Shown: positions 25,186-61,875 of the stretch, piece by piece | Layout of the letters: each line of letters begins with the position of its first letter | How positions within the stretch are numbered: the first letter of the stretch is position 1 | Source: Diadema setosum | Lineage: Eukaryota > Echinodermata > Echinoidea > Diadematoida > Diadematidae | Assembly (NCBI GenBank): GCA_033980235.1 | Contig: CM067070.1 | Span: 24,020,699-24,084,698 of the forward strand | Reading direction: 5' to 3' | Length of the DNA stretch: 64,000 nucleotides | Program-made: the position numbers and the translations under genes | Notes under the pieces: generated by a model | Told to the model about the DNA's origin: nothing | What the model saw: only the letters and a program-made list of their open reading frames with translations | Databases searched by the model: none

Positions 25186-25472
25186 TCACGATGTCAGTAA
25201 GATGAGTTCATGTGCCAGTTCTGGGAACCCTTTGTTGAACAACTTGTCCATCGTCTCCTGTCGTTTCAATCTGTACTGTTCTGCCTTTTCTTTTTTGTCT
25301 TTCTTGTCTTGGTTCGCAACGAACGCTTTCATCGTGTTCATTATCATTGTAAGGTTTGGAGCTTTTGAACCTTTTCCCATGATGCTGCATACTTTCTTTC
25401 TTTCATCATCTGTCAGGCGACTGAAAATATCTGCCATTACTGCTTGGTGTGGCTCTCCCTTGGAATGCATAC
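25186..25472 (-). CDS. Receptor gene: last exon, charged helical domain
   Basis: The exon has acceptor GAAACAG|GTATGC, phase-1 entry (the preceding G gives Gly) and stop TGA at 25186-25188. It encodes about 95 residues: an N-terminal helical part ([20 protein letters not shown]), a strongly charged Lys/Glu stretch ([20 protein letters not shown]) and an ending [18 protein letters not shown]. The last segment resembles the C-terminal helix of the upstream death-fold exons (compare [14 protein letters not shown] in the exon at 35400-35669), but the middle is not a standard death domain. The charged stretch suggests an extended or coiled helix. It is the C-terminus of the protein; the exact fold is unknown. 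Confidence 0.8.
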
Positions 25473-25900
25473 CTGTTTCAAGCGAAATTATCGGATAAAA
25501 TATATCAATGCAAATATGTGTCTTTAAAATCTCTTTTTACTTTTGTGTTCAGGAAAACTTTACGTACATTCGAATTTGCCCATTAAATTTTGATTACGTC
25601 AGTTGGAAGGACAACGGGGTTTTCAAGGGCGACTCAATATCAGTTCCATAAATATAAGACTTTCAATATTTCCTTAAACAAACATGTGTGGGAAACATAC
25701 GTAAAGTACATTATTCATATACTTTTTACATTCGACTAAATTGGTTGCTGAAAGGATTTGGAAACTTGCACTAATCCTCTGGTATTTTTTTTTCTTGATC
25801 TGAAATCACAACATGAAAGAGCAAGCGTTTATCGATTTCCCCCCAATTGCATAACTTAGAAGTTATGAAATTGTGAATTTTACTCTTATCTGCAGAACAG

Positions 25901-25948
<48 letters not shown>

Positions 25949-27825
25949 ATTATAGGTTTTCCAGTCCAATTTCGCACTTTTTTCAGTCCAATTCCTAATT
26001 TGTGCATTCAATTTAGCAGAATTTAACCTAGATGGCATGTTCGGTATTTCAATTTTATAATCTTTTCATTCAAATTCATTTTGGAGCATTCAAATTACAT
26101 TTAACATCATTCGAATCAGTACTTTTTCAGTTCAAATTCGTAAGACAAGCACCAATTCGCAAATCGTTCATTCAATTTAGCATGATATAGTCACGTGATC
26201 ACATATACGCTGCGCTCGTTCATTCGAATTCATTCTTGGGCATCCAATTTCGCATTTACTGCAGTCAATTTAGCAGACACGTTAAGCATTTATTCCTTTT
26301 TTTTTCCATTTTCATTCATCATAGGTACTGTTTGCAAGCATCTGAACATTTCATTTTTCGTATTCATTCTTTATTCTGATGTCACCTTTGCAACAGTACT
26401 TTCAAAATATGTGTATGCGTTTAAAATGTTGGATAGCATTATTTCATTCACAGATAATTTTTTTTGTTTTGACATTAATATTGGGAGAAGGAGGTTTCTT
26501 ACATCTTGAATATATATATATATATATATGTTATTATAGGTTTTCCAGTCCAATTTCGCACTTTTTTCAGTCCAATTCCTAATTTGTGCATTCAATTTAG
26601 CAGAATTTAGCCTAGATGGCATGTTCGGTATTTCAATTTTATAATCTTTTCATTCAAATTCATTTTGGAGCATTCAAATTACATTTAACATCATTCGAAT
26701 CAGTACTTTTTCAGTTCAAATTCGTAAGACAAGCACCAATTCGCAAATCGTTCATTCAATTTAGCATGATATAGTCACGTGATCACGTATACGCTGCGCT
26801 CGTTCATTCGAATTCATTCTTGGGCATCCAATTTCGCATTTACTGCAGTCAATTTAGCAGACACGTTAAGCATTTATTCCTTTTTTTTCCATTTTCATTC
26901 ATCATAGGTAGTGTTTGCAAGCATCTGAACATTTCATTTTTCGTATTCATTCTTTATTCTGATGTCACCTTTGCAACAGTACTTTCAAAATATGTGTATG
27001 CGTTTAAAATGTTGGATAGCATTATTTCATTCACAGATAAATAATTTTTTTTTTGTTTTGACATTAATATTGGGAGAAGGAGGTTTCTTACATCTTGATT
27101 ATTTCTTTCATCCGCATGTTTCATTATTTTCATCTGGTGGGTGCTATATTGCGTTAATCATCATTAAGAATAAAGTTCTTGGATCGGATCTAGCCATCAA
27201 TTTGTCAAGGTTGTTACCCTCAAATGATTCTATGATTGTTTCCCTGTCTTCTTGAGAGATACGCCTGTATCTTACTCGTACTGCCATGACTGGACATAAG
27301 AAAGTGAAGTGATCTATGGTACTGGTGCATGTATAGTTCTGATAACATGTATAAAAGAAGAGGGGCGTTACAGAACAACAAACTTGAATTATTTATTGTC
27401 AAAGATACCTTTGCTATATACTTAACAGTGTGTGGATGAAACAAAAATTCACCTTTAAATACGTATAAACCACGGTTCTCACCTTTTCAAAATAGAATTA
27501 ACATTACGCCAATTTGAATGAACATGTTTGCAATTTGACTGCCCATACGCGAAATTGAATGACTGAAATACCATTTTCCGCCAGTGCTGGCGAATTTGAA
27601 TGACTGAAGAGCACGTGCCAATTTGAATGCCCGTTTTACGGATTCGAAAGGCACATGTGCGAATTTCATTGATCGAAATGCTAAATTGAATGAACAAGTT
27701 GCAATTTTGAATGACAGAATGTGCAGTGACGAGGATTTTCGCTAAATTGAATGAACCTTTTATCAAATAGACTGATAAAAGTGCGAAATTGGCCGGGAAA
27801 ACCTATATCATTATTATTCGTATAA

Positions 27826-27874
<49 letters not shown>

Positions 27875-28724
27875 CAAATAATTTATGAGTTGTGAGTGCA
27901 TTAGGGCACGAAGCGCCACGTTGAATCTCGCACCGAGCGCGATATTACGTGCCCCAACGCACGAACAAATCATAAATTATTCGTTTTATACAACACCTTG
28001 TCCATAATCACAGTACTAAATTAGTGACCGGCAACTCGGGAAGGCCCAAAAATAAATCTAACAATTAGGCCGAGAATTCTAAACCACCCATTTTACTGTT
28101 TTCAAACACTGGTCATGATTCGACCACACAGTTACAGGAATCGCAAACTCTGCAGGGTCTATACCCATTTTACACTAACGTTACATCGGGTTAGGCCTAA
28201 CTGTAAAGCCGGTCTGAGATGTTGGTAGATCTAGTAAGTCTAGACTTTGTCTATTTCCGACAATGACTTTGTATAAAAACATAGAAAAATAATCAAATTA
28301 CGGTTTCTCAACTTGAAATGAAGTCTTGATTTTGAAATCACTGTGGTCCACGTAGCAGATCAGATTCAAAAGTAAAAACAAAGCCGTAATAGCGTAAGGC
28401 CGCAATACATGCAACTAGCTAGGTAAAGTAGCTGCGCGTACACGAAAAACGTTGCAGTACTCCCCCGCGCCTGGCCTGTGAATGAACTTACCGTACCGGC
28501 AGCGCAGCCGGCCAGCACGTAGTTTGCTGGCGCTTTGCTAGTGAAGTCGAGCGCCCGTGCATTAGTAACCACCCGCGAAGCCGTGCATTAGTACCTGTGA
28601 GCCGTGCAATAGGCCCATGCCAGGAGACTATTGCATGGCTCTCAATGAGTTTGATAGGTATTTTCTATTGAATGTTATGTGACTTGTTCTTGGCCAATCA
28701 CAATTCGACATCATTCTAAGGTGT

Positions 28725-28758
<34 letters not shown>

Positions 28759-28820
28759 TATATTTAGCTGCTCTGCAGATATTAGTAATATATATATATA
28801 TACAAATATATATTATATAG

Positions 28821-28859
<39 letters not shown>

Positions 28860-31434
28860 AATATGCATATATATATATATATATATATAAGCATATGAAT
28901 GAGATGCTGTCATCGCCGTTCATTTTTGCATTGACAGCGTGAAAAAATGACGAAAGTTCAAAGTTACTGTGAGTTCATTGGTAAAACTAAACTGATATTC
29001 GTGGTTGATTACCTTTAGAATAAAGTTTGGGCAGATTTTTTATAAGGATTTTAGACTGTGACGCAAAAGTGTTTGAATGAAAAACTAACGATTTCCTAAT
29101 TCTACGTACACACTACACTCTAAAAAAGATCCGGGTCAGAACTAACCCGGAACTGGGTCCGTTTGGATCATTCACCGTTCCGGGTCAAAAATGATTTTGA
29201 ATTTGCTTATGAAGACCCCGAATGGGGTCACCCTGACCCAATTCATGACTCTGAATGTGACATATCTGACCCATTCCTTTTCATTTCTGACCCGGAACGG
29301 TGTGTGACCCCAACGGACCAAGTTTCGGGTCAGTTATGAACCGGATTTTTTTAAAGTGTATGATGGCAAGCTCTGAGGGGGCAGTCATCAGCTGTTTTCA
29401 ATGTTTGCATATCATTCGTATGAACTTCTCCAGCATTATTTCCTGACATATTAGCGAAACTTTAAAATATCACAACATCCTTATTTATGTCCGACTTTGA
29501 TCAATGTTCACTGTTGCGCTAAGAAGCTGTAGGGTCTAACAATATAATTTTCAGGCTGGCTTTCAACTGCACTGGAATTCCCTTTCCATGCAATGACTGT
29601 TATAATGCGGAACCTGATTTTGGGATAAAATGCCTATACATGCGATACCTGACGGAATTTCATGCCCATGTTCTTCCATGTTGTTCATACACTCCAATGC
29701 CTCGGCTAGCTCCTGGCGGTAATGATAGAGTGGAGGATGGATCTTTTTCTTCCAAAGCTTTAGTAACTCGAGTTTTTCATCATATCCAACGCGACATGAA
29801 TTTATGTCATCTTTCTTTAAACCTAATCGCGAGGCAAAAGCAGTAACTTCTCCATCATCAAGGTCTGGTAACTCAGCCAGTAAATCTTCTATGTTCTCCT
29901 CAGCATCTGAAAAAAAAGTTAGAGGAAATATCAGAAAGGAGATATTCTTTTCAAGACAGTGTGGAAGCGAGACCATAGTCATACAGTAAAATCGGTTTTC
30001 CCTACGGTCAATTTCATACTTATGTCACTAAAGTTTCTATTCCGAGCATTGCCTAATGGGCATTTATATTCCTTCTCATGAAGCCAAAGTTCAAATTTTA
30101 GAATGGACAGGTGGACCAATACTGCAAAATAAATAATTTCCGTCATAAATCCTAACATATTTCCAGCTGAATGAAAAAGACACACATACACGGCCCCAAA
30201 ACTAACTAAATTCAGGACATCTTTTAAATTAAATGCAGTTATTTGGAATTTGGGTGCCTATTCACGAATTTGAATGACCGACGAGATTCCGAGAGATATG
30301 AATTTGAATGTTATTTGCTAAAATTCATGCTCCTCTCTTAAATTTGAAGGCTCCGACAGTGAGTTTTGAATGCTCCGATAATGAATTTGAATGACCGGAT
30401 TTTGAATTCGATTGCCGATTCACTGCTGCGAGTGTGGAATGTGTGAAATCGAATGCTCAGAATAGGAGCTTGAATGACAAAAGTATGAAATTGACCGGGA
30501 AAACCCACACGTATACTAACCAGTAGCCCATGGCAGTCCTGATGTTATCTCTTAGATCACCACTATTCTATATTACATTGCATATTATAACTGACGAGCC
30601 GTCAAGCCTGATTTCAAAACGACAAAAAATAACTCGTAGCAGAGCAGCGTACTACACGTTTGACCTCAGGGCGTAAGTGCAAGTCGCTTTTTTCACTAAG
30701 TACACTAAGGCATTTGTATCTGTCATCCAGCAAAATCATACACAGTATAGGTTTTATCAGCGTAAGTAGAAGACGTGATTAATGACAAGATAGTTGTACT
30801 TCCCTGTTGAGACTGGATTGCAACCTTATCGAAACAATATAGAGTTCCACAAAGCAACTTACGGCAAACTGTATAGGTCATGTGTAATATAAATCTGTAT
30901 TTTCTGCCGATTTAGGTTGTTTCTGTGTTTCCCTAAAAGAAATCATTTATGTTAGGGGTTAAGCGTCGTTTAGTATAAGGAAGATTAATGCTGTCTCTGT
31001 CAGTATAATAAAAAATGAAACGACAGAGAACACGTACAAGTGGTGGGCACTCAATACCATGTACTGTTAAGTTGTTAGGAATTTCCTCTAGCACGTCCAA
31101 CAGACTAGTGAAGCATATCTCTCCTCTCCTTTCTACGGCACTTATTCTCTCAATTGCTTCCCCCCCCCCATCACCGATTAACACCGATGTGTTGGCTCAT
31201 TGAGTAGAGCGGCTGCCCTCACAATCGGGAGGTCGTGGGTTCAAACCCCGGCCGCGTCATACCAAAAGACGTTAAAAGATGGGAGTTGCTGCTACCTTGT
31301 TTGCCGTTCCAACAGTTGAAAAGGTTAGAGCAACGTCGATCTGGCGCTGCTCAGTGGCTGCCGGGCCCACGATCAATTGGGCAAAATGAATGTCCATTCT
31401 TGGACAATACAATTTGGAGTTTATATCCAAAACA

Positions 31435-31481
<47 letters not shown>

Positions 31482-34400
31482 CACGTTTGAAATCTTTCAT
31501 TCTCATCTTGGAAAATATTTGTAGTCTACATATGTGAAGCTCCTTAAAAAGAAAAAGAAAAAGAAATCTAGATTTTTTTGTGTTTCGTCTATTTTTTTTA
31601 TTCATTTAGCTTTCATACTATTTTCTGGAATTAACAGAGATGCATGCTTTCCTCAGGGATGTGTTTATCAACTGACAATATACCCGATTACATATTTATA
31701 CACTGTAAAGATTTATCTCATATTCAAGTAATGTGCAGATTAATGCCCTATCATTGACCAGGCACGCTAACCTGGAAACATTAAACTGCACATTACTTGA
31801 ATATGAGACCATTCTGAAGCAAATAATTTTCACACAACAATTCATGATGTACTCTTAAATGAATCCCACAAGGATTAGAACAATCAGCATCCAGCATTCC
31901 CACTGATTCTCACTGATTAGCTACTAGCCATCCCCTTTAACACCAGCTCGGTGTTTCATATTCAACACCTGACTTTTTGCAGTATACGCTTATGTTTAAG
32001 AAAAAAAAAAGATTTTTTAAAAATAATTATGGCCTTTAATTCCTTTAAAATGCACATGAGGCAGGCGAAGCCAAGCATTGTACCAAAGATAATATACAAT
32101 CTACGCACAACGGATAGACTCATCCTTCGAACGCTTCTTACGGTATAAAGTTGAATAGTTTTCATCTTACATGATGTTTCATGTTTAATAGTAGCTCCTT
32201 GTTTGGTCGTCACACAGCGCAGAGTTTCTTCAAACACTTCTGCATAGTTATACGAAGAAGGATGGAGCTTGTTACGCCACAGCCTGATGAGAGCAAGTTT
32301 GTCAGTTACTTTGGATGGTGGAAAAAGTTTGAAATCTGTCCTCACTGAGCTATACTCTGCATCGCTCAGACCAAGTCGAGATGCAACTTCCTTTGTTTGT
32401 CCTTCAGTGAGATGCTCCACTTTTCCGTACATTGCGTAGACGTCATTTCCAATATCTAGGCGAGGAAAAAGCAGATCGTATTTGCACCACCGTCATTTCC
32501 ACCAAATAGCATGACTTCTAAACTTGCTACACTAAATCAGAATAACCACAGGCAAAACAAAAACGCAAGATGATATCACGCTGAATACAAGGAAGCTAGG
32601 TATGTACCCTTCAATTATGACACCCTGCATGCTTTCATTTTGAGAGATTAAAAAAAGAATTCTCACTGTCATCTACTGGGGCCCTAGAGTGGCTCTAATA
32701 TGAGATGATTAAAACATGAAAATGAAGAATCTCTCTGTAAATCCTAATTTAAATGGCATTAGAGAAGAATCAATATCAACAAAAATCGTAGAAATCTGTA
32801 TTGTTAATTTCAAATAAGGAAATGAAGATAGCATATGGTTCTTGAATTTGTCTTATGAATTCTTATGTTCCCAAATGAAAAAGAAAACAATAATAACGAA
32901 TATCATTAAAAAAGAATGAAGTAGAGAAATTCCGTCAGTTCTATCACTTTGGTGGATTTATTTATCTAAAAACAATGTTGTTATCTGAATATCAGTAATT
33001 CTATTGTCATTGTTAATGTATTATACACGAAATTCTTTCGTAGAAATATCGACGCAATTAATTTATTATGTAAAAATGATTATGTAACCGACCATGACCT
33101 GTATCACCTGTCCACCTGTACCTCGTTGAGGAAATATTTTGTCATGTCTTGCTAATCAGTAATACAGGTGACTTTACTTTGTGTGAACCTTTAGTGAAAG
33201 CAGACAAACCCCTCCTTTCCCTTTCTCCTTTCAACTATCCTATCTCTATCCAAGTCATTCCTCCCTCCTATTCTCCTTTCGATGTATTATGTCATGCTAC
33301 GGGGGCTGCACGCAAATCAAGCTACGCTTATGCTGTAGCCCCTCTGTATTATTCATTGTAGTATGTTTTGTTGTACTTTTGCTGTACATTGTACACAGGC
33401 ACAATGAACAAGAAAATACTTATATATTATAGTATCTATGTCTGTACATGAATGTGTATATGTACAATGATGATACAGAAATCAATAAATCAAATCAAAT
33501 CAAAATCAAATCAAAAATTTCCGATGTTATTTGAAGTAGGAGATGACAGAAAATTTTAAGTTTCACCTTTTATGTTCAATCATGGTGAATGTTTTAGTCA
33601 AAACAGAGATAAAAGAGAATAAAAACCTACTTTTGTAATCTAATTTTATGTCTCTCAATGTGTTAAATATGTCTTTTGTAATCATTGATATCTTTGAGGA
33701 CATTTGCGATGGATTGACATGTCAATTTTCACAGTTTTTACTTCTCTGCCTCGGAGAGCAAAACGATGAATGTGCCCATTCAAGCGTAAAGTTTCCCTTT
33801 GTATCGATCTGCCAGGCTGATAGCCAACAATACATAATATCGTTGTTGGTTTTTTTAGCAATATCTTCTATGACAAATGAACTGTAAAAAAAGTTCACTT
33901 TCATTTTTTTTTTGTGTATAACAAATGGTTGATACCTAATTAAAACTTTATTATCTTAAATAAGATGATTCAGTGTCGGCTCCCCCTCGCCCACCAAAAA
34001 AAAAAACAAACAAAAAAACAAACAAACAAACAAGAAACAAAAAACAAGGGAAAAAAAAGTAGCGCTTGGATTCTGTTGTGTCATGATGATTATGATAATT
34101 ACAAGTGTATAATTTCCCACCTTCCAGCAGTTTGTTGGCAAACTCTTTGTAGTATTTGAGACCATTTATGGCATTTGCTATCTCTTCCCTGTAGTAGAAA
34201 GGGGGTGAATGCTTCTTTTTCGTCCATCGTGTGATCACTTTTAAAAGTCTTCTTTTTTCAAGGGTCTTCCTGGATGAATCAATGTCTCCTTGACTAAGTC
34301 CTAGCTTCTGCCCAAGCGACAGCACTTGCTCATCGCTGAGATTGGATGTGATGGCGTACATTTCGCTGAGGCTTTGGTCGTGATCTGAAATATGATTACA

Positions 34401-37400: not shown

Positions 37401-37434
37401 TCACCGCCCCAAACAGCAAACAGTCATACACACA

Positions 37435-37473
<39 letters not shown>

Positions 37474-38371: not shown

Positions 38372-38409
<38 letters not shown>

Positions 38410-41400: not shown

Positions 41401-42928
41401 ATGCACGATGCGTAAACCAAAGGAATTACGAAATGTCAGAAATATACTTTCGTTAAACGCTTGAAATACATGTACGTTTGTAAAAACAATGAAAGTTGAA
41501 ATTTCTCGTCAAAGTAGATGGCCAGACCAGACAATCTAATTAGATATTTCGATATTTTGAGCTTGTTTTTGTTTTCTTCATTTTCTTAAAGTGAATCGTC
41601 CAAACAGTGACTGCTATCAAAGTAATAAGACGCAAAATAATTAAAGCCATAATCAAGCGCTTTGAAATCATTCTCATGATGTCTGCTGAGGTAATCCCTT
41701 TTAAGAAATAACGTTTCCCCAAAACATTGCCTTGCCTTGGCTCTGCAGCTCATTGATGATGTCGTAGAAAAGCTTCCGCACTGGCTTGCCAGACGAAGAC
41801 AGTCTGACGTCTCGCCATTTACATAGCTCTGTCACAACATCCTCGTCCGTTATTTCCTTTGATGTCTGGATACCTAGTACTTCCAAGACCCGAAGTTTAT
41901 GTTCTTTATTTAGATATGTTATACTTTGCTGGACTTCCCTCTTGGAAATGTAGTTCATATCTGCATGGTTCAGATAGACAGCAAAAAGACATTATTGTGG
42001 AATAAAACGCACTGTGTTGGTATTTGAGTATGAAAAACGTAGTTACAATCATAACAATGAAGATGAAGTTGTGCTGTAAAAAAAAAAAAAGCTTAGATGC
42101 ACACACCCTTCCGACACAAGTAGTGTTTTGTTTCTTTGTTTGTTTGTTTGGTTTTTTTTTTTACAATATTAATTTGATTCGTTGGGATTCTCTTGGTGCG
42201 CCTCTTTTATCTCTGGGATGATCTTTGTTTGTAAGCGCATTGAAAGTTTGAAGTTATCATCGCATTTTCTCTGCAATACTTTAAAACTATAGAATCGAAT
42301 ACCATTATAATGATATGCAAATGAAAGCAGAAACGGAATGTATACTAACGCCATTGAAAATGCGAAGTATTGTTGAAAATTTCAGCGCTGATTTACACCA
42401 AGTGTTTTTTTTTTTTTTGTGTGTATGAGTGTTTGCGTGTGTATGTCTGCAGAAATCAACGCGTTTCTTCGTATTTCCCTTAATAAATTCCAAAAGTATA
42501 TAATAACATTTTCTCGATCTCCACAGACTTAGTGTAAATGGATAAAAAAATAGTGGGTACAAAGTTCGGTTGTTTACCACTTACGATATTGGCCTAGCAT
42601 GTTAAGCATGTTGCCATCATATCCCACGTTTTCGGGAAGAAAGGGCACACGGTCATCTGGAAATAAAACAAAATAAAGCAATATGAAAATCTGGAACGAA
42701 ATCAGTCACGATGATCATTGACATCTTTGATTGATGATGTACCACCCTGCCTGAAATTCTCCAACATTTCCTTTCTGAAAAATTCTATTTTACGCAAGCT
42801 GTACTATATCAGATTGTAATTGCACTAGATACTCACCAAGGCGATTCAGGAGTTGTAACGTCGACTGATCACTGAGACCAGTAGGTCCTAACTTATCATC
42901 AATGGCCATTATGGAACCTTGTATACAA

Positions 42929-42969
<41 letters not shown>

Positions 42970-45900
42970 AGAAGATGAAGAAGAAGAAGATAATGATGAA
43001 GAAGAAGATTGATACATAAGAATTTTTTCTTTTTTTTTTCTCAAATGAAGGGGATTTGCTGGCATTTGTAAATTCGTTAAAGATAATAAAAAGTTTTGGT
43101 ACCTCAAAAGTTTCCTTGAATTTCCTTGTCTTTGTTTGTGTTTCAGGTTAAAGTACCTTTCATATAACTAACACTGTGAGACTTACTCGCCCCAAAGTGC
43201 TCTCATGTCTTAGTAATCATGCAATTAACTGCGACCAGCAGCCCCATACACGCATAGCGACCAGCAGTCCCATACGCATAGCGTAATCGGGCTTCGCATT
43301 GTAGTATTCAGGATCAATACAGATTTAGTATCGAAGGATAAATGTCAACTTAAAATCCCAAAAATTCTTCAATTTGAAGACTTACCAATTAAGGTGAAGT
43401 ATTGAAAACAGGCTTCGGGCAACGTTTGGTTCTGCCTATAGTCCCTTTCTGTTCGAATTGATGACTGAATGTGACTCGGTCGAGAGGACCTTGGGAGAGC
43501 TACCATACACTGAATACTACAGTCAGTGCATGCGAACACATCTCATGCGTACAAATTTCAAATCCATCAACGGGTAAGATGTTTGTGTGCGCATGCGCTG
43601 GCCGTAGTAGTCAGTGTAGTAGCTCTCCCAAGGTCCTCTCGACCGAGTCACATTCAGTCATGAATTCGAAAAGAAAGGGACTATTGGTAGAACCAAACGT
43701 TGTTCGAAGCCTGTTTTCAATACTTCAACTTAATTGGTAAGTCTTCAAATCGAAGAAATTTTTGGATTTTAAGTTGCCATTTACCCGCGATACTAATTCT
43801 GTCATGATCCTGAATGCTACAATGCGAAGCCCCATTACGCTATGCGTATGGGGCTGCTGGTCGCAGTTAGCTATGCGTACAATGGGCTGCACGCTGCTGG
43901 TCGCAGTCAGTGGTTTCGTACAATATTTATCGACGCCGTACGGCGACGGCTCTGGTACGAAACCATTATTGCATGATTACTATTAGAGAGCACTTTGGGG
44001 CGAGTAATTCTCACAGACAACGTACTTTAACGTGAAACACAAACCAAGACAAGGAAATTCAGGGAAACTTTTGAGGTACCAAAACTTTTTATTATCTTTA
44101 ACGCCTAAGAAAATTGCAAACTTTTAAGGTGAAAGGGATTATTTTGTTACCTTGTTCAGAGTGTCATGACATTAGTCTGAGAAAAATTGTTCTTAATGAT
44201 TTCTAGTAATGTGTCATCTTCGTACTTCTGTATGAACATTTCCCATAAAGCCTGACTTACCATCAAATGTCTTCCTAACTACTCATTTACTTGGACTCTA
44301 TTTATCAAATGCAAATACATAGAATGTGTGAACTCTTTACTTGATCTGTATGATAATAATTGATGTCACAAAGCTTTATACATATACTACTTGGCAGATG
44401 TCGTCCCTACATTGAAAAAAACAAACAAACTTGAAAACTAAATCCAGTCAAACAGCACAACCCCTCGTGAAAAGGTACACAATCATTCAACATGTAATAG
44501 TATAGATCGGTCCTTTCAAGAAACAGGATAGGCTACTGCATGAGACGTGCTCTTGATAAATTTTTAATGTTTTGCATTCAACCGTAACCTAATTAATGTG
44601 ATGGTCGCACAGTGACTGCTATATTCATGTCCTTGCTAGAACACGATTGCTCTCTGCATCCCACACATTTATAAGGATGTCACTTATGTTGGTGAACATT
44701 ATCTAATAATTTTACAGTTCAAACAACCGGAATGGCATTATTCATAACAAGTAATTAAGTTCACCTATATTAAGCTACAAAGTGTGCTTCCTGACAGACT
44801 CGATGAGAGAGCACCACGATACTTCCTAAAAAGGGTCTAGGGCAATTATCCCCTGAGCAATTACCACGGATCCTTCCCCTGGCCCTAATCCTAATCCTAA
44901 TCCCAATCCTGAACCTAATCCTAACCCTAACCATAACTCCTAACCCTAAACCTAACCCGTACCCTAATCTTTACCCTAACCTTACCACTAACCAGTATCG
45001 AGCCGGGGGGTAATTGCCCTCTGGGGATAGGCCTAAAAAATGTCCTCAGGTCACATCACGTCACACGAATACCCTTACCAAACGCATCGTAACATCCTGC
45101 CTTCATGGCTGCCTCCCAAAGTTTGCATCTGATATAATATGGACTTTTCTTTTGAGGTGCAATCCAATCCTCGATCATCTTGCAAGTGGCGAATAAGTTT
45201 TCTTCTTCAGTCAATCTGTTTTCATGTCTGAGATCTTTTTCTCCCTTTGACAGCACATCGCCCAGCCTGGAACGGTATCGTTTTGTCAGCTCAGAAGCGA
45301 TCTTCCTCACTTGAAGTGAGCTGATAGGCTTCATCCACTTTTCTTTAACTGCAAAATGATAGGACACTCTTGTCACATACAAATTAACCCTGAATGTGCC
45401 CAGCAGCCACTTTAGAGATCAGGTTCAATAGATTTTACTTAACAAGCTTTGTCATCATGCAGCATTATAACATAGTAATGAATTACTTTCCATTACTTTC
45501 ACAGAGTTGTGCAACCAGAAAAACCCGCACTGGCCAAGCACGACGCCCAAGTATAACAGAAAGGTTAAAGTGACAAAATATGACTCTTAAAGGGATGGTA
45601 CAGTATTGGCGGAGATGAGAATTGGACTTTTATCTTTTTGCAAGATACGAAGAAAACACTTATGATATAGTACAGAACATACCATTTTAACAGGAATTCA
45701 AAGTTTGTTTGATGAAAATCGGGTTTTGAGTGGCTGAAACATCCAAAAACAAAGTAAAACAAAGCGATCATAATAAAGTGTGGGTCCCACACTTTATTAG
45801 AATCGCTCTTTTTTGGATATCTCAGCTATTTCAAAACCAATTTTCATCAAATAAATGTTGAATTCCTCATAAAATTACATGCTTTTCCATATTTCATGAG

Positions 45901-48900
45901 AGGTTTCTCATTATCTCACCAAAAAATGTTCGAAACCTGAAATTAGGTCTCAACCAAAACTGTACAATCCCTTTAAGTATCTGTGCCAATCGGTGAACAA
46001 AGCACATTAGATTTGGGGGCTTGACCTTATCGAGTGAAAGAGGTCAATGAAACAACATCATTGAGGTGAGAAAATAAAGAGGAAAAGTGCCTGAGCAGCA
46101 GTGGACATTGAGAGAGATAGCAATCTGATCATATTTAGCACCTGAAAGCAGAGAGACGGTAAGATAATGAAATTCTTGATTCTCCTCATACGTATATTTG
46201 TTTGTTTTTAATCCTCTCTCCATACCTGAGTATAACTTTCATTTTCTCACTGTGAAATCTAAGTTACAGAATGATTTTTTTTTTTTAAAATACATAATAA
46301 GCCTACGCATAGGCAATTTGTATGCAGGTACAGCTAAACGCTCTTGATGGCAACGCTTGAATAAATATGTAAGTGCGGGTAAAAAATTTCCATTTTAAAC
46401 TTTCTCCATCATGTGAGGTTTCCATCTTCAACTGTCCAAGCAGTAACTGTAGCTGTTACGATGTCGGTAGACGATTTTCTGGTTGGTGCAATTTTTGCAC
46501 ACGTACCGATGAGGGCTTCTTTTGGTACAACAATGTCAAAGGGTTCACAAGTGTCAAATTTATGCATATGAATATATTGATTGTAACAATAAAAAAAAAG
46601 AAAAAAGAAGAAGAAGAAATGCACATGTACCTAAAAAGAAAGTTTGATGAGTCGGTTTACAGTCTGATTTCTCCAGTGCCCGACACAGCTGCACAAGAAG
46701 GTTTCCTTTGGAATTTTTCTTCCACAACAAAATTGTTCCAAAAGGATCCTTCACTACGTCGGACTCATTTGTCTCCGTGGTATAGCCACGTGCTACTTCT
46801 AATTCATACAGGAGTTTTCCCATTTTGTTCCCGTCAATACTCCACAGTACATATTTCACAAGGTCATCCGATACAGTCGGTTGGGGTTCTTTATTGAAAT
46901 CTTGAATTGGAAAAGTGGACAGAGGGAGAGAACAAAAGCAAAATTTAGCCAATCTCAGTAAAAATGACTGTATGCAATGAAAACTGCGAAATAAGATACT
47001 TTTACGAACTGCTTCTATTAGCAATGATTAGTTTTCAACTTCATGAAATCAAGCTGGAAGAAAGACAAGCTGTCCTTGTTTTTCAATTGATTAAATGAAT
47101 TATAAGTTTATTTCAGTCTCTAAGATGCAAATCTATCGCGCAGCGTTTGTGAAGAAAATATAGCAGTATATAGAATGTTGTTTCGAGGAAGTGTGTATGC
47201 CAAGGACTGTCATAATTTTTTAAATAAGGACCACTGAAGTCAAATGATATTGATGTTATTCTTGATTCTTCAATCAACCTGGAAACACATCTAATAGGCC
47301 TACATGTATCACCAAATTGTGCAGGAATGAGCTTTGAGCTATATCGCAATAATCAAGATGATTATTACAACCTATCATACATTTTTTTTTTTTTTACAGA
47401 ACATTTGGTTTATCAGTCTATTACATCTCATATAGATTATTATTACAATCAGCATGATTTTTGGATACTGTTAACACTTAGTATTTCCTGAATAATCTAT
47501 GTCAACGAGAAGCGTTTCATTCGTTTGTTTGTTTTTAGTCTTTGTTTGTCATCACATGGAAAAGAATTCTGAATTAGATATTGATCTCAAACCGTACAGT
47601 TTGGCAAGGTTTATACAGTTACGTTAGCAAATTCAAATCACACATTGTGCAGATTAGAAAACTTGGAGGTAGACTTTCCACTACTGTAATATGAGTATTA
47701 CTGTAAAATGATAATAATTGTAGAATAAATGAAAGTGAAAACTCTGTTCTATGGTCATGAAGCTTTACATTGATGGTCGGTATGGCTTGTCGTACTTAAT
47801 TCTCCAACAATTTGAGATGTTCTAATGATTGAGCGCTCTTTTGAATCCGGACAATCTATGAAAACTTTCATCTGTAGTCAATGAAAAATACAACTTACCT
47901 CCACATTTTACTAGATATGGTGTGTCATTCCAGTTGCTCTGTTAATGTTTCTTGGGGACCAGTGACAACACTTTTATATAGTCATTCAGATTTCGCGGTC
48001 TGAGAGTTTTACAAATATCTGTCTTCCTAAATAAAGGGAAAAATTGCTTTCACTTCTTACAGAAATGTGGTAAGCTAAATTTAATATTCTCAATGGATCC
48101 TTGAACAGCAAGGCCAATTGCCTCGACTGATTGTGACATTATGTGATGAGTTAACCAAGTTCCTATATTCACTGCTGCCTTTCTAAATTTTGAAAATACA
48201 TAAACTAACTTTTCGGCATCAAAGCACCCCGTAGTGGAAGGAAGGATCGTTCAAGGACAATAGAAGCTTACATTTCTACAAATGAAATAACTAATGTGTG
48301 CATTTGTTCATAACATAAGGCTTCTTAGCATAGATTGAACATCTTAATAGTCAACATTATAACCAAACCTTCTTTTTTTTTCAATATTCAGTTCTTATTT
48401 CACGGATGTCCTCCAATGAAAACTGTTTGCAGTATTTCGGATAGAGTCTTTATTGTCCAGTGTAGGTACATACACACAGTCATTATTTAAGAGCTTATTA
48501 GTTTCAGTTTTGTGGTTTTTTTTTTTCAATCTTGCCTTTTGCACTCAAATGAAACACTTGTTCTGTTTTCAAATTCTAATGTGAAGTACTGTGATTAGTC
48601 GTCGGACTTTCATTAAATAAAATCGAAATTGATTTATTTGACTTTATTCGTGTTAAAGGAGACCTCCGGATGATTTTCAGATTTTTGCATTTGAACAACT
48701 ATGACTTAGTTATGCTGAGGACAGAGTTTCAGAATTTATGATAACTGGGATGAAGAATAAGAATATTTTCAAAATTTAAAACAAATTGCAATGGACAAGG
48801 ATGATGACATGGCAGAGTCACCATAAGTATGCACGAGTTGGGGCGCAAGGAAGCAGAACAAAAGAAGAAGGCATGCATAGATTATACACAGGTGAACTCG

Positions 48901-51900
48901 CATGCAAGTAGTATTGTAATGGAATTTCTGAAATATGTGAACCTCCTATGTCATCATCCTTGTTCAGTGTAATTTGTTGAAGGTTTTTCAAAGTATTGTT
49001 TCTCTCTGATCAAGAACCACAATAAATTCCACAAATCCATACATGGAGTTGTCGATTTATGTACTACATGATGTGAAATTATGAAAATCGTCTGGAATGT
49101 CCCTTTAATGAGAGAGGATATATAGAAAACCCAATATCTATAGTTCTTACTCGTGGTCTTTAACATTTTGACGGAGGCATGTGAAACATTTTGCCCATTA
49201 TGTATTATGTCTTCAAGGACACGCAAGCAGCAATGCAGAATTACAACTGAAGGGATTAAAATGCATGATATCATAATAAAATATCGAGTTATCTGAAGTA
49301 TTTATCATTATTGTGTCTTCAAAAATGAGTGCCTCAGGCATTACTCAAAATTGGTGCAAAATCCCTTATTTCACGAAGAAAGACGAGATTATATAATTTT
49401 TTGTTAAAAGGTGATCGTAGCTAAAATGGGAAAATAACCAAAATATAGGGGGAAAATGTGCATAGGGTCAAAATGTACATGCGGGGAGGAATACTGAGGA
49501 TTACTCAAAATGCCAATTTTTAGCTATTAAGTGGCATTACAGCTACAAGTTCATTTGTATATCTCACCGTCCAAATATTTTTTAAAATTTGCGTTGGTAT
49601 CACTGACGTGAAAGATGCCTAACAGGTCTTTCTTAGATGCTTTTTTACTGCTTTTGGGATTACAGAGAGCGACGAACAGCTGGCTGACAGACGCAGTCAA
49701 AGGTTCGTCTGAACTGATGGTCTCTGATGAGCGCAAAGTGTCGACCAGGTTGTCCAGAACATTACGGCTCTTAGCATATTGCAATAACTCCCAAACTTCG
49801 ATGGAAGACAAAGATTCTGTTTGGAAAAAAACAACACACAATTGGAATTTGAAATGTCTTGGCCTTAAGTTCAATAATTTAAGTTCTGTATCCAAGGGAC
49901 AGATTACACTGAATAATCATGTTCGTACCTGGTACAGCTTTTGCAGATACCATCCCTGCTTGAAACTGCATAAAGATTCCAACATAGATTAGCATATTGA
50001 AAAGGTGTAAATATATTATCTGGTAACGATGAACACAGAAGGAGTGTCAGGCTTATTTGTTTTTCTTTTGTTTGTTTGTTTTGTGTGGTTTTTTTGCAAC
50101 GAAAATTTTGCCTTCTATAAATACTATAGAAGAACCGAAACAGTATTTACTGCCATATTTTGCTTTTGTTTGCAAAACGATTCTGTCTTTTGCTATAACA
50201 TTCTACTTCCACATTTTGAATCTCCTGTTCGTTTTCATGGGTATGCAGAACTAAAATCGTTTCTTGCCTCACAGTTACAGATGTTGACAAGAGCAATTAT
50301 ACGATCATATGTTGAAAACTAGTGATTGAGATAAAGAAAAACTTTCATATCTTACTATGGAATAACGAAATTGTCCATCTTTCAGTAAGTCATTAGCCTA
50401 TCATATTCAATTACGCACTTCGATATCACACAAGGCGATATTGCACGTTGTGACTGAAGGACGATTTGTTGCAAATGATAAAGCGTTAGATGAAGTAATT
50501 CAGATCATACTGGTATCCTACCTTGCAACAGTTGAAATTCCTCATCTCTCTCTTCTGTGGATTATGAAAGAAGAAATAAAGCATATATCTCATTTCGTGA
50601 GAAAAAAAATGCAGTAAACGGTAAGGTCTTTATAATTGTTGCATTTATAAAGTTCATTCAAAACAAACATGTCTTTGCATGTCTCATATCTTTAAGATTC
50701 AAGTTTTTGTTCATAAAGAATTTAATGATTTCCATAGAAACATTATATTTCAATTTGTCGTAGTGCAATGCGGTTTTAAAGGATGGTATACACTGCAAAA
50801 AGTCCGGTGTTAAATAGTGAACACCGAGCTGGTGTTAAATTTTCGGTGCTCATTTATGGTGTTAAATTAACACCTCCGGGTGTCATTTCCAAATACAAAA
50901 CTGGTTTTTGAAGAGTTTCTTAGAAACTGCACTTCTTGTTGATTTTTAATTTAAACAAAACGATCAAGAAATTTACATTAAAATACTAGATTTTTGAGAA
51001 AAAAAATGACAATAAATTTACACCACAGTAACACCAGCTGGTGTGGTCTCTTACTGAAGCTGGACGGGTGTTAAACCATTGATATTAACACCAACAAATA
51101 TCAAATCAACACCATGTGGTGTCATTTTTTAATTAACACCAGTACAGTGTCAAAATAACACCAGGTACAGTGTCAAATTAACACCACGAAGTGTCAGGTG
51201 AACACTTTTCAACACCATCACAGTGCATTTTCTACACCTGTGGGTGTGGTCCTCTATTGAAGTTTGATCGGTGTTAGATTAAATACCCATGGTGTTAAAT
51301 CTAACACCGACGTTTTTACTGTGTGGTATTAAAATGGTGGAGATGGGGATTGGGGTTTTAACTTTTTGAAAGATACCAAGATAACACTCATGAAATAGTA
51401 CAGAGCATGACATTCCAAGAGGAATTCAAAGTTAATTGGATAAAAAAGAATGGCTGACACATCAAAAAAACAAAGTAAAACAAAACAATGATAATAATAG
51501 GTGGGTTCCACCTTTTATTAGGATCGCTCTGTTTTGGATATCTCAGCCATTTCAAAGCCCATTTTCATTAAATAATTTGTCTTGTGATTACATTCTCCCT
51601 CACATTTAATATGAGGGTGCTTTATTTTTTGTTATTTCACAAAAAAAGAACAAGTTAGAAACTTGGACGTTGGTCTCAACCAAAACTATGCGACCTCTAT
51701 AACATAATATGATATATTTCGGCACATCACAATCAGAAAACAAGTACGCTATTGGTGATAAGATAAAGTTGCTCAGAATTTTAGCAACAAACTGATAAAA
51801 AAAAAATGTTTTCACGCGGCATTGCGTTAAAAGTGAGAAAGCATTACTAGTAGTTAACTTGAAGATAGCGTGTGTTTACGAAGTTTTCATAATGGGTGCA

Positions 51901-52098
51901 ATAAATGAAAACTAAAGCAGTACAAGACGTGATGACACAACTTACGTTTTCTACTTCGGTCCTTCTGTTTTCGACGAATATAAACAGTTACTAAAGAGGC
52001 AATGGCAATAACGAAGATTCCTCCCACGAGCACAGTGACGACTGCTTTTTGGATCGGCGTGACAAATAACGTTTGGAATAAATAAAATATTATTAACA
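25186..52098 (-). CDS. Transmembrane receptor with tandem death-fold domains (spliced gene)
   Basis: This is the gene model assembled from the 15 exons listed separately. From 5' to 3' they are 51946-52098, 50522-50554, 49929-49955, 49568-49816, 46631-46900, 45079-45348, 42837-42917, 42585-42656, 41736-41960, 40916-41146, 35400-35669, 34121-34384, 32171-32455, 29649-29906 and 25186-25472. All internal exons are multiples of three with phase-1 introns on both sides, giving one open frame of about 991 codons to a TGA. It predicts a single-pass membrane protein: ectodomain (off-window), TM helix, basic stop-transfer, then a cytoplasmic string of helical exons. At least four, and probably seven or eight, of these resemble death-fold domains. 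Death folds work by homotypic assembly in apoptosis and innate immune signalling, so this protein probably nucleates a signalling complex at the membrane. The 5' end is missing and no expression evidence is available here. Confidence 0.8.
25945..27815. mobile_element. Foldback element, AATTTGAATG family, with 0.58-kb duplication
   Basis: Located in the last intron. The outer arms are inverted: GGTTTTCCAGTCCAATTTCG at 25954 and CGAAATTGGCCGGGAAAACC near 27784. Subterminal regions iterate CATTCAATTTAGCA / CATTCAAATT on the left and the inverse AATTTGAATGAC on the right. The left arm is directly duplicated: 25946-26510 and 26530-27099 are about 585 bp apart and nearly identical, each preceded by a (TA)n tract. 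The 94-codon frames within are repeat-derived. Confidence 0.75.
27831..27990. repeat. (TA)n tract and adjoining imperfect hairpin
   Basis: A (TA)n microsatellite at 27831-27870 abuts an inverted repeat. CAAATAATTTATGAGTTGTG...AGGGCACG on the left pairs with CGTGCCCCA...CATAAATTATTCG on the right, around a centre near 27930. It looks like a small MITE or a remnant terminus. Confidence 0.6.
27991..29115. other. Intronic sequence with long (TA)n tracts
   Basis: Here I see no exon. Between 28726 and 28890 there are several (TA)n blocks separated by short unique DNA, which create Tyr/Ile open frames on both strands. Around 28545-28640 GTGCATTAG/GTGCAATAG motifs recur, probably repeat-derived. Confidence 0.45.
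29116..29358. mobile_element. MITE with TA flanks, CCGGGTCAG arms
   Basis: The inverted ends are CACTCTAAAAAAGATCCGGG and the complement of CCGGATTTTTTTAAAGTG. TA dinucleotides flank both sides (29114-29115 and 29359-29360), as expected for Tc1/mariner-type TA target duplication. The arms of about 100 bp iterate GACCCGGAAC and GGGTCAGAAC motifs and pair with each other. Confidence 0.8.
29649..29906 (-). CDS. Receptor gene: death-domain exon
   Basis: Acceptor TTTTTTTCAG|ATGCTG and donor TCAG|GTATCG give 258 bp, phase 1-1. The sequence is a good death-domain match: acidic helix 1 ([19 protein letters not shown]), [15 protein letters not shown] as helices 2-3, [12 protein letters not shown] around helices 4-5 with the buried tryptophan, and [12 protein letters not shown] as helix 6. 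It shares RLGL, the W-x-x-K-x-H-P step and the Y-x-Y/R-Q-E pattern with the two preceding exons, so these three are closely related tandem duplicates. As a cytoplasmic module it would make homotypic death-domain contacts. Confidence 0.9.
30240..30510. repeat. Single arm of AATTTGAATG foldback family
   Basis: It repeats GAATTTGAATG(ACC) about every 25-35 bp and ends with ATGAAATTGACCGGGAAAACCC, the same terminus as the right arm of the element at 25945-27815. No opposite arm is seen, so it is a solo end. Confidence 0.65.
30511..31187. other. Intronic sequence, nothing recognised
   Basis: No exon or repeat family is recognised. The open frames at 30933-31184 on both strands have no domain or splice support. 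Confidence 0.4.
31188..31481 (+). repeat. tRNA-derived SINE with (ATT)n tail
   Basis: The head (31188-31260) has an RNA polymerase III A box (TTGGCTCATTGAGTAG) and B box (GGTTCAAACCC) at tRNA-like spacing. The anticodon arm is not clean, so it is not a working tRNA gene. A short body follows (AGACGTTAAAAGATGGGAG, then AGTGGCTGCCGGGCC), ending in an (ATT)n array at 31436-31481. The tail would pair with a LINE partner. It sits in the intron, antisense to the receptor gene. Confidence 0.8.
32171..32455 (-). CDS. Receptor gene: death-domain exon
   Basis: Acceptor CTCGCCTAG|ATATTG and donor ATCAT|GTAAGATG give 285 bp, phase 1-1. The domain reads [20 protein letters not shown] (helices 1-2), [10 protein letters not shown] (helix 3), [20 protein letters not shown] (helices 4-5 with conserved Trp) and [12 protein letters not shown] (helix 6). 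It aligns with the neighbouring exons at RLGL, S-x-x-R, L-x-x-I/L-R-x-W-x-x-K-x-H-P. The C-terminal tail up to the donor ([10 protein letters not shown]) is a short polar linker. The donor is inferred from phase and GTAAGA. Reading on past it gives a hydrophobic, unrelated tail, which is probably intronic. Confidence 0.88.
32456..33099. other. Intronic sequence, nothing recognised
   Basis: AT-rich intron between the death-domain exons; no exon, RNA or repeat family recognised. Confidence 0.4.
33100..33515 (+). repeat. Probable LINE 3' end with (AAATC)n tail
   Basis: A pyrimidine-rich segment, a stretch with TGTACACAGGCACAATGAAC and a terminal (ATCAA)n/(AAATC)n array at about 33481-33515 resemble the 3' UTR and tail of a CR1-group retroelement. 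No RT sequence remains, so the call rests on tail architecture only. Confidence 0.45.
33516..34120. other. Intronic sequence; A-rich tract
   Basis: No gene is visible. An A/C-rich low-complexity tract (33998-34058) lies just beyond the donor of the preceding death-domain exon. Confidence 0.4.
34121..34384 (-). CDS. Receptor gene: death-domain exon
   Basis: Acceptor TATTTCAG|ATCACG and donor GGAAG|GTGGGA give 264 bp, phase 1-1. The death-domain pattern is clear: [20 protein letters not shown] and [14 protein letters not shown] (helices 1-3), [17 protein letters not shown] with the conserved Trp (helices 4-5), and [20 protein letters not shown] (helices 5-6). Of all exons in the gene it and the next two look most like canonical death domains (NFkB/UNC5/MALT1-type sequence style). 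It is preceded and followed by other single-exon death-fold modules on the same frame. Confidence 0.9.
35400..35669 (-). CDS. Receptor gene: divergent death-fold exon
   Basis: Acceptor GTCTTGCAG|AGAATA and donor CCCTGA|GTAAAT give 270 bp, phase 1-1. Past the weak donor the frame meets a stop after three more codons, so an alternative truncated end is possible. Helical segments [44 protein letters not shown] and [20 protein letters not shown] fit a six-helix death-fold pattern: LGL-D early, and a C-terminal helix 'L-x-x-A-G-F-x-D-I-A'. The usual tryptophan is missing, so it is a diverged member. Confidence 0.82.
35702..36892. mobile_element. Foldback element, GACCGACCG motif family
   Basis: The terminal inverted repeats are GGCTACGGTCACAA (35704) and TTGTGACCGTAGCC (to 36890). 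Both arms iterate GACCGACCG / CGGTCGCCG / GATCGGTCACC motifs; the middle is T/C-rich unique sequence (36100-36720). It is non-autonomous, starts about 30 bp upstream of the death-fold exon's acceptor and could touch its branch-point region. Confidence 0.8.
36893..37481. other. Intronic low-complexity sequence
   Basis: Contains A-rich (37258-37312) and (CA)n (37425-37471) tracts; the open frames here are low-complexity artefacts. Confidence 0.45.
37482..40637. mobile_element. Foldback element, TCCGTAACG family, carrying a LINE fragment
   Basis: The ends are inverted: GCCCCAGTCACA on the left and TGTGACTGGGGC on the right. The arms (37490-37930, 40375-40630) iterate about 10-bp motifs such as CCGTAACTAT, TCCGCAA, GGACGCA. 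The centre contains an ATA/ATG trinucleotide tract (38369-38408, 39087-39207) and a LINE C-terminal fragment with an A-rich tail. Both lie in the 5.2-kb intron between the linker exon and the next death-fold exon. Confidence 0.75.
39491..40300 (+). pseudogene. LINE reverse transcriptase C-terminal fragment
   Basis: An open plus-strand frame from about 39491 to 39952 encodes the end of a CR1/Jockey-group polyprotein: [64 protein letters not shown] and [11 protein letters not shown] 3' UTR follows and an A-rich (AAATA)n tail ends near 40298. All upstream domains are missing (5' truncation). It is antisense to the receptor gene. Confidence 0.8.
40750..40830. repeat. (CA)n microsatellite
   Basis: CA/CATA tract at about 40784-40824, just downstream (in gene orientation) of the linker exon's donor. 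Confidence 0.8.
40916..41146 (-). CDS. Receptor gene: Ser/Glu-rich linker exon
   Basis: Acceptor AACTTTTCAG|TTTTC and donor TGCCAAG|GTACAAGT give 231 bp, phase 1-1. The 77 residues ([60 protein letters not shown]) are rich in Ser, Glu, Gln and Lys, have almost no hydrophobic core, and look disordered. It separates the membrane-proximal exons from the distal run of four death-fold exons. Several Ser/Thr in acidic context could be phosphorylated, which is inference only. Confidence 0.83.
41147..41735 (-). other. GC-AG intron
   Basis: The donor dinucleotide is GC within CCAAG|GCAAGG (minus strand; GC at 41735-41734). It is the strong AG|GCAAG context that GC-AG introns need, and the acceptor is a normal TTTTCAG. 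This is the only junction that keeps the phase-1 frame between the flanking exons. If the intron is retained, the upstream frame ends after [11 protein letters not shown] at 41701. Confidence 0.7.
41736..41960 (-). CDS. Receptor gene: death-fold exon
   Basis: Acceptor CCATGCAG|ATATGA and non-canonical GC donor give 225 bp, phase 1-1. Helical segments [70 protein letters not shown] follow a death-domain plan: a hydrophobic helix with VLGI, acidic helix 3-4, a Trp in CKW, and a C-terminal [10 protein letters not shown] helix. It is shorter than the other modules by about 12-15 residues, mostly before helix 1. Confidence 0.83.
41961..42584. other. Intron, nothing recognised
   Basis: Short intron with T/A homopolymers; no exon or repeat family. 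Confidence 0.4.
42585..42656 (-). CDS. Receptor gene: 72-bp exon
   Basis: Acceptor TTTATTTCCAG|ATGACC and donor AATATC|GTAAGT are both strong; length 72, phase 1-1. It encodes [20 protein letters not shown] plus GQY, a short acidic/hydrophobic segment that with the 81-bp exon before it may form one folded unit (helix LNMLGQY leading into the following death-fold exon). No family recognised. Confidence 0.8.
42837..42917 (-). CDS. Receptor gene: 81-bp exon
   Basis: Acceptor GTATACAAG|GTTCCA and donor CGCCTTG|GTGAGT give 81 bp, phase 1-1. It encodes [20 protein letters not shown] then LLNRLG. The pattern '[14 protein letters not shown]' resembles helix 1-2 of a death fold, so this and the next 72-bp exon may be the split front of a module. 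Its acceptor lies beside a (GA)n tract at 42929-42966. Confidence 0.78.
43075..44103. repeat. 1.03-kb near-perfect palindrome
   Basis: The left arm begins CGTTAAAGATAATAAAAAGT, and the right arm ends with its exact complement ACTTTTTATTATCTTTAACG. Pairing continues through GGTACCTCAAAAGTTTCC, TCGCCCCAAAGTGCTCTC and CTCTCCCAAGGTCCTCTCGA to a centre near 43590, with arms of about 500 bp and only a short spacer. There is no coding potential. It sits within the intron between the 270-bp death-fold exon (45079-45348) and the 81-bp exon, so the unspliced transcript would contain a long double-stranded hairpin. Most likely a long foldback MITE. Confidence 0.9.
44104..44879. other. Intron, nothing recognised
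   Basis: I see no exon or repeat family in this stretch. Confidence 0.4.
44880..44995. repeat. Degenerate telomere-like (CCCTAA)n array
   Basis: About 115 bases of CCTAATCCTAATCC, CCTAACCCTAACC and close variants, i.e. the metazoan telomere hexamer TTAGGG on the other strand, with many changes. An old interstitial telomeric repeat or a satellite of similar composition; it is bordered by GGGGCAATTATC-like and TGCCCTCTGGGGATAGGCC sequence that are mutually inverse. Confidence 0.75.
45079..45348 (-). CDS. Receptor gene: death-fold-like exon
   Basis: Acceptor TTTTGCAG|TTAAAG and donor GTTTG|GTAAGG give 270 bp, phase 1-1. Residues start [20 protein letters not shown] and continue with [38 protein letters not shown] and [18 protein letters not shown]. 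The latter half (helix with MIEDW, basic turn, helix [14 protein letters not shown]) matches the C-terminal part of death folds, 'L-x-x-A-L-x-x-A-G-x-x-D-x-A'. The first half is basic and diverged. It has the same length as two other exons of the gene. Confidence 0.82.
45586..45976. mobile_element. TTAA-flanked MITE, GGGATGGTACAG family
   Basis: Left end CTTAAAGGGATGGTACAGT, right end ACTGTACAATCCCTTTAAG. The arms match GGAATTCAAAGTTTGTTTGA and related sequence; other copies are at 18652-18945 and, interrupted, around 50778-51700. Located in the intron between two death-fold exons. Confidence 0.85.
46631..46900 (-). CDS. Receptor gene: death-domain-like exon
   Basis: Acceptor CAATTCAAG|ATTTCA and donor TTTTTAG|GTACAT give 270 bp, phase 1-1. 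The module runs [20 protein letters not shown] (helix 1), [18 protein letters not shown] (helix 2), [20 protein letters not shown] (helices 3-4) and [18 protein letters not shown] (helices 5-6). [21 protein letters not shown] is a typical death-domain/CARD-like second half with the buried Trp. It is the first clear death-fold module after the membrane. Confidence 0.88.
47025..48652. other. Intron, nothing recognised
   Basis: Part of the 2.7-kb intron; no exon, RNA gene or repeat family recognised up to the MITE at 48653. Confidence 0.4.
48653..49108. mobile_element. TTAA-flanked MITE, intronic
   Basis: Inverted ends TTAAAGGAGACCTCCGGATG and the complement of CGTCTGGAATGTCCCTTTAA; further pairing GATTTTCA near each end. 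No coding capacity. Confidence 0.7.
49568..49816 (-). CDS. Receptor gene: first cytoplasmic helical exon
   Basis: Acceptor CCAAACAG|AATCTT and donor TGGACG|GTGAGA give 249 bp, phase 1-1. Residues [54 protein letters not shown] and a basic Ser/Lys stretch (SSKKASKKD), then LLGIFHVSD and a C-terminal KKYLDG. Helix 1 has a death-effector/death-fold look ([21 protein letters not shown]), but the rest is not diagnostic. It could be a death-fold relative or an unrelated helical module. Confidence 0.8.
49929..49955 (-). CDS. Receptor gene: candidate 27-bp microexon
   Basis: Minus-strand CAAGCAG|GGATGG acceptor and CCAG|GTACGA donor bound 27 bp encoding GMVSAKAVP, phase 1-1. It is frame-neutral, so it could be included or skipped without changing the rest. 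A longer version starting at the upstream AG breaks the frame. Support is splice-site quality and phase only; polypyrimidine tract is weak. Confidence 0.45.
50522..50554 (-). CDS. Receptor gene: candidate 33-bp microexon
   Basis: Acceptor ATCCACAG|AAGAGA and donor GCAAG|GTAGGA bound 33 bp encoding (Q/E)[10 protein letters not shown], phase 1-1. It is acidic, fits just after the basic stop-transfer of the TM exon and joins without a frame change to either downstream exon. Both splice sites are good; transcript evidence would be decisive. Confidence 0.55.
50778..51700. mobile_element. GGGATGGTACAG MITE interrupted by another MITE
   Basis: AAAGGATGGTA at 50778-50788 and GTATTAAAATGGTGGAGATG from 51326 are the two halves of one copy of the family at 45586-45976, continuing to about 51700. 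The other MITE (50789-51326) is inserted within it, which fixes the order of insertion. Confidence 0.75.
50789..51326. mobile_element. MITE, GTGTTA/ACACC family, complete copy
   Basis: Ends ACACTGCAAAAAGTCCGGTG and the complement of CCGACGTTTTTACTGTGTGG, in a TA-rich target (possible TA duplication). The interior iterates GGTGTTAAAT and ACACCAG motifs with GTGTCA. Nearly identical to the copy at 1-426. Confidence 0.8.
51946..52098 (-). CDS. Receptor gene: transmembrane exon
   Basis: The donor AAAAC|GTAAGT is strong. The acceptor is placed at TTAAG|TGTTAA because an in-frame TAA lies immediately upstream; a shorter exon beginning near 52041 is also possible and keeps phase 1. It encodes a short juxtamembrane part ([10 protein letters not shown]), a 23-residue hydrophobic helix ([20 protein letters not shown] then VYI) and a basic stop-transfer ([11 protein letters not shown]), which orients the C-terminus to the cytosol. 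This fixes the downstream death-fold array as intracellular. The exon ends with one base (C) that the next exon completes. The 5' neighbouring exon is not in the window. Confidence 0.82.
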
Positions 52099-61750: not shown

Positions 61751-61875
61751 GCAGGATTTGAGTTTATTGCAAAGAAATAAAATGCCAGTAGAATTGAAAA
61801 TTCATTATCTTGATTTCCTTTACTGTAAATTTATCGCTAAAATCAATCAATTGAAATGGAGATTTGTAAACGAAT

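Follow-up and report, generated by a model that had tools for sequence, protein, structure and literature searches.

Death receptors of the TNFR superfamily and p75NTR usually carry one death domain each. Death domains signal through several surfaces, and many copies contributed by separate chains assemble into oligomers. At the genome scale, 87 death-domain matches (82 confirmed) were reported in S. purpuratus and 139 (136 confirmed) in amphioxus (PMC2246300, Table 1), and excerpts of the same paper mention ‘double death domain repeats’ in CED-4/Apaf-1 homologs (PMC2246300). Here, a window of 64,000 nucleotides from Diadema setosum (contig CM067070.1), which is the whole stretch of DNA that was analysed, was examined for an array of exons, several of which appear to encode death folds. 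The reading that we favour, with a probability of about 0.6, is an exon-shuffled death-fold cluster in which a 3′ multi-death-domain cassette lies next to exons for a 5′, probably membrane-anchored product, the whole being two genes or a single gene with alternative ends.

The exon array between 52 and 25 kb

From about 52 to 25 kb, the minus strand contains a putative transmembrane (TM) exon, the short E4 (81 nt) and ten further exons (E1-E3 and E5-E11) whose lengths range from 225 to 287 nt. Every exon of the array except the terminal E11 is in phase 1-1 and has a length divisible by 3, with the proviso that E5 and E7 count as internal exons only with a GC donor (E5) or a weak GT donor (E7). 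The first-pass annotation had named four exons (E2, E8, E9 and E10), which are indeed open, flanked by AG and GT and in phase 1-1, with lengths that are multiples of 3. Beyond these four, E1 and E3 to E7 were found in the same phase, and E11 as the last exon with a stop.

The sequence was scanned blind for open, symmetric exons 220-330 nt long whose splice sites score -0.5 or higher. On the minus strand between 25.0 and 52.1 kb this retrieved seven (E1, E2, E3, E6, E8, E9 and E10), all of them in phase 1. The chance level, estimated from 60 first-order Markov simulations, was a mean of 0.27 symmetric exons (maximum 2), or 0.03 in phase 1 (maximum 1), and the plus strand of the same interval yielded a single symmetric exon, in phase 2. 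Because seven symmetric phase-1 exons were found where 0.03 are expected, the exons of the array are considered to be real. Over the whole window, the scan returned 10 symmetric exons on the minus strand and 3 on the plus strand. Among the three minus-strand exons located outside the array, one is inside an ORF that matches a reverse transcriptase in Pfam, another is within an ORF that is reverse transcriptase-like by eye and has no Pfam match, and the remaining one (24466-24738) has no explanation.

Reverse transcriptase-like sequences and repeats occur at several places in the window. A reverse transcriptase ORF is found at 23097-24221 on the minus strand (RVT_1, 93.3 bits), and similar sequences were noted by eye at 15596-17527 (minus), 39362-39952 (plus) and 58895-59293 (plus); a part of the first of these (15599-16168) gave no Pfam match. 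An inverted repeat of ~830 bp links 55222-56049 and 61860-62688 (93% identity), and a direct repeat of ~590 bp (25926-26513 and 26510-27102, 98% identity) is located between E10 and E11.

Codon usage was scored with a model trained on E3 and E8-E11 and compared with 136 null ORFs, the null ORFs being scored by the full model and each training exon with itself left out. E3, E4 and E6-E11 exceed all 136 null ORFs (null maximum 0.07 bits per codon; 0.22 for E4 and 0.12 for E6), E2 (-0.03) and E5 (-0.07) are over the null 95th percentile (-0.11), while E1 (-0.16) and the TM exon (-0.15) fall within the null. The splice matrices, the hydropathy values and the tryptophan motif used in this work are generally known ones or our own. 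In most of the comparisons, the module translations take the opening base of their first codon from the intron, and residue 1 may differ from that of the true join.

At the 5′ end of the array, the putative TM exon (51946-52044, minus) encodes a hydrophobic helix followed by a basic stop-transfer segment, as the first-pass annotation had described, with a best 19-mer Kyte-Doolittle value of 2.62. Its donor, AAC/GTAAGT, is a good one (97.9th percentile among minus-strand GT sites); its acceptor is poor (-4.4), and an alternative at 52041 scores -5.2. The product of the array may thereby be anchored in the membrane. In a search for an ectodomain and signal peptide joined to the TM, the minus strand from 52.1 to 64 kb showed no exon 150-420 nt long whose splice sites score 1.5 or higher, and no ectodomain was recognised within the window. 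Just upstream of the TM exon, the segment 52124-52336 (minus) has a good-looking acceptor and donor by eye, in a phase incompatible with the TM exon. Elsewhere on the minus strand, two immunoglobulin V-set-like exon remnants were noted by eye (3411-3716 and 6298-6595), which are 74.5% identical to each other and are interrupted by frame breaks and stops. One piece of each was compared with Pfam and gave no match at E 0.1. They may once have been ectodomain exons of a receptor nearby and have since decayed.

Death-domain modules and their diverged relatives

Judging from their sequences, E8 (34121-34384), E9 (32171-32455) and E10 (29649-29906), all on the minus strand, form one death-domain family. 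They have 12 invariant columns in common, and their pairwise z values are 14.8 (E8-E10), 12.5 (E9-E10) and 5.9 (E8-E9). In a tblastn search within the window, E8 matches E10 with an E-value of 6.7e-7. By eye, the three modules contain a stretch H-[PS]-x-x-[YF]-x-Y downstream of a tryptophan. The donor of E8 is at the 99.5th percentile. The first-pass annotation had counted four good death domains, of which these three stand; the fourth, E2, does not join them, as described below.

A search with E8-E9-E10 covered 1767 candidates and retrieved a single protein, which is uncharacterized, comes from Diadema setosum and is 276 aa long (hereafter P0001; E 9.1e-53). P0001 consists of E9-, E10- and E11-like modules in the same order, at residues 1-74, 90-172 and 175-253, with identities of 47, 73 and 33% over 74, 83 and 95 columns, respectively. 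The E9-E10 junction reads HAEE in P0001 and YAEE after splicing in the window (phase 1, x/AT), and at the E10-E11 junction the third module opens with G in both. This conservation of module order and junctions supports the splice sites and the presence of E11 in the same protein and, as P0001 has three modules in the same order, it also supports the view that a single protein holds three or more modules in tandem. P0001 contains neither the TM module nor E8, and its C-terminus is longer. Its first residue is a methionine inside a module, which E8 and E9 have at residue 9, and hence the database model of P0001 may be truncated at its start.

Comparison with known families gave a more restricted picture. 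Among the ten modules scanned, E10 passed the gathering threshold of Pfam Death (PF00531; 25.6 versus 22.6 bits), so that the Pfam check proposed in the first-pass annotation came out in favour of this module and not of the other nine, E8 and E9 included, for which no row exceeded any cut-off. The best Pfam row for E8 is Homeodomain, below its cut-off. P0001 reaches 21.2 bits against Pfam Death, just short of the threshold, and in the NCBIfam scan no row exceeded its cut-off. When a profile of E8-E10 and two P0001 modules was compared with the PDB, the 17 rows listed included the death domains of TNFR1 (E 0.094), CRADD (0.18) and TNFRSF25 (1.3); because a designed homeodomain (0.023) and a coronin coiled coil (0.056) outrank TNFR1, this result is support and not proof. 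With a profile of nine modules (E6 omitted), none of the 16 PDB rows listed was named death domain. The motif W-x14-h-x3-h occurs in 6 of the 10 modules, but it also follows 22 of 121 control tryptophans and was therefore given little weight.

The terminal exon E11 (25186-25472, minus), which carries the stop, is a diverged death-fold candidate. Together with its P0001 relative, E11 was aligned by hhalign to the E8-E10 family with an E-value of 3.7e-4 (probability 36, 24 columns), and the score of E11 alone in the local profile comparison was reached by none of 40 shuffles. Its z to the death-domain core is 3.58, whereas that of its P0001 relative alone is only 1.34. Against the PDB, the pair retrieved BIRC2 in rows 3 and 4 of 6 (E 0.28 and 0.45), under two unrelated rows at 0.25; the part of BIRC2 matched is presumably its CARD. 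E11 thus appears to belong, weakly, with the E8-E10 family, and its fold would be the same.

The comparisons also suggest, weakly, that E3 (45079-45348), E5 (41736-41960) and E7 (35400-35669), all on the minus strand, may be diverged members of the family, E5 only via the other diverged modules. E3, with splice scores of 3.6/3.7, has a z of 5.7 to E8, a value reached by none of 300 shuffles, and of 3.24 to the core set. The z values of E5 are 3.9 to E3, 2.9 to E7 and 2.57 to E11 with its relative; against the E8-E10 core, the z of E5 is -0.01. E7 has a z of 2.69 to the core, matched by none of 138 control ORFs. In the local profile comparison the three modules are non-significant, as 6, 20 and 3 of 40 shuffles reach E3, E5 and E7, respectively. 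The tandem array of single-exon death folds put forward in the first-pass annotation thus stands with three clear members, a fourth by profile and P0001 with three in order, while its extension to three more modules is weak.

For E1 (49568-49816, minus, 83 aa) and E2 (46631-46900, minus, 90 aa), no convincing relation to the death-domain family was seen. The best pairwise z is 2.2 for E1 (to E5) and 1.4 for E2; E2 has a z of 1.27 to the death-domain core, no Pfam row and weak splice scores (0.0/-0.3), while E1 is flanked by strong splice sites and is open in the phase of the array. Against the core, E1, E2 and E5 are reached by 3, 2 and 3 of the 138 control ORFs without exceeding their own shuffles. 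Since they beat nearly all controls but not their shuffles, control ORFs alone are a lax test. E6 (40916-41146, minus, phase 1-1, splice scores 3.1/-0.4), a spacer exon with many Ser, Glu and Gln residues, was not recognised as a death fold. Against the core it beats all 138 control ORFs, yet its z against its own shuffles is 1.71, and the signal was read as composition. The structure predictions that the first-pass annotation had called for were made for E1 and E2 and decide neither way. The single-sequence model of E1 has five helices at low confidence (pLDDT 53.3) and that of E2 is all strand and too poor for use (pLDDT 44.6). A fold search with E1 gave no match that could be used; the top row by query TM-score was PEA-15 (E 8.1, probability 0.08), which contains a death effector domain, and it was not counted as evidence.

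One gene or two

Several exons upstream of E8 could begin or end a transcript. E4 (42837-42917, minus, splice scores 2.3/4.6) is either an exon of 27 aa or a first exon read from an internal ATG (42837-42909, minus). This ATG is in good context (A at -3, G at +4) and may be the start of a second transcript. E5 has the donor AAG/GCAAGG or, alternatively, is terminal with a stop 11 codons further on. The donor of E7, TGA/GTAAAT, ranks at the 61.8th percentile among minus-strand GT sites, with a stop three codons beyond (35389-35391). Because this donor does not stand out from an average GT and the stop is close, E7 reads as a last exon and is probably terminal. By eye, a helix-6-like segment immediately precedes the stop in E7, as it does in E11.

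In the favoured reading, splicing would join E8-E9-E10-E11, as a cassette, into a single polypeptide that holds three to four death folds in tandem, P0001 providing the parallel for E9-E11 and the joining of E8 being presumed. The 5′ half (TM, E1, E2, E3, E5, E6 and E7) would encode a probably membrane-anchored product able to end at E7. The two halves may be one gene with alternative ends, since E6 can splice past E7 to E8 as phase 1 is kept throughout, or two neighbouring genes. Two units, or one gene ending early at E7, seem likelier than a single tail that contains every module.

The strictest form of the separation, a TM-anchored gene ending at E7 followed by a gene for a cytosolic multi-death-domain adaptor (E8 or E9 to E11), is a tentative but serious candidate. 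It agrees with the terminal appearance of E7 and with P0001, a stand-alone protein of 276 aa without TM that starts at a methionine common to E9. However, E8 has a methionine at the equivalent place, which suggests a helix residue rather than a start, and the ~1 kb from E7 to E8 leaves scant space for a promoter. In addition, no first exon with a phase-1 donor score of at least 3 was found between E7 and E8 or between E8 and E9, which disfavours a second gene starting there.

The same short distance and missing first exon could be taken in favour of one membrane receptor, as could the common strand and the phase-1 junctions, by which all exons are joinable in frame. Such a receptor would carry every module from E1 to E11 behind the TM, in one tail with about eight or nine death folds. 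This is unlikely, as the E7 donor is ordinary and followed by a stop, the TM acceptor is poor, P0001 spans E9-E11 only and E1 and E2 are not recognisable as death folds. No longer relative of the spliced models was found at E <= 10 among 7995 and 562 candidates scored, a weak negative since at most 100 sparse words were used and candidate length was limited. The first-pass annotation had proposed seven or eight modules in one receptor tail or transcript; the E7 donor and stop, the GC donor needed by E5 and the TM acceptor speak against this. A variant in which an echinoid membrane receptor with 8-9 tandem phase 1-1 death-fold modules would produce tails of varied valency, by skipping or by an early end at E7, is quite unlikely.

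It is improbable, and the least probable of these readings, that the TM exon, E1 and E2 are unexpressed or decaying and that functional exons begin only at E3. The codon scores of the TM exon and E1 within the null, those of E2 and E5 barely over its 95th percentile, the weak splice sites on both sides of E2 and the decayed immunoglobulin-like exons in the same window would fit such decay, but the strong splice sites and open, in-phase frame of E1 argue otherwise.

Under the favoured exon-shuffled cluster, a chain with several death domains in a row would present its binding surfaces at a higher local concentration and with greater avidity, and a single such molecule could nucleate or bridge assembly with adaptors and downstream enzymes.

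Comparison with known death-domain systems

The array resembles the PF00531 death domains of TNFR1, TNFRSF25 and CRADD in that E10 is over the Pfam cut-off and the family profile reaches all three. It differs from them by having several modules in tandem, one per exon in phase 1-1, and by the stretch H-[PS]-x-x-[YF]-x-Y that E8, E9 and E10 have in common. The combination of a TM segment with intracellular death domains, if the TM exon belongs to the array, is also that of the TNFR superfamily death receptors and p75NTR, whereas the array is without a recognised ectodomain in the window. The uniform phase 1-1 exons would be a clear example of duplicated death-domain exons in an echinoid lineage.

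Among the literature matches listed, in which subscription journals are thinly covered, no natural tandem array of at least three death domains was found, which is no proof of absence. Likewise, the excerpted parts of the survey of sea urchin and amphioxus repertoires describe no tandem array of at least three (PMC2246300). Large death-domain repertoires of sea urchin and amphioxus and double repeats are known, and what appears to be new here is the presence of at least three modules in tandem. At least three covalently linked death domains would mean that part of the assembly is carried in one chain, and would allow one to ask whether valency is encoded by the gene and tuned by splicing.
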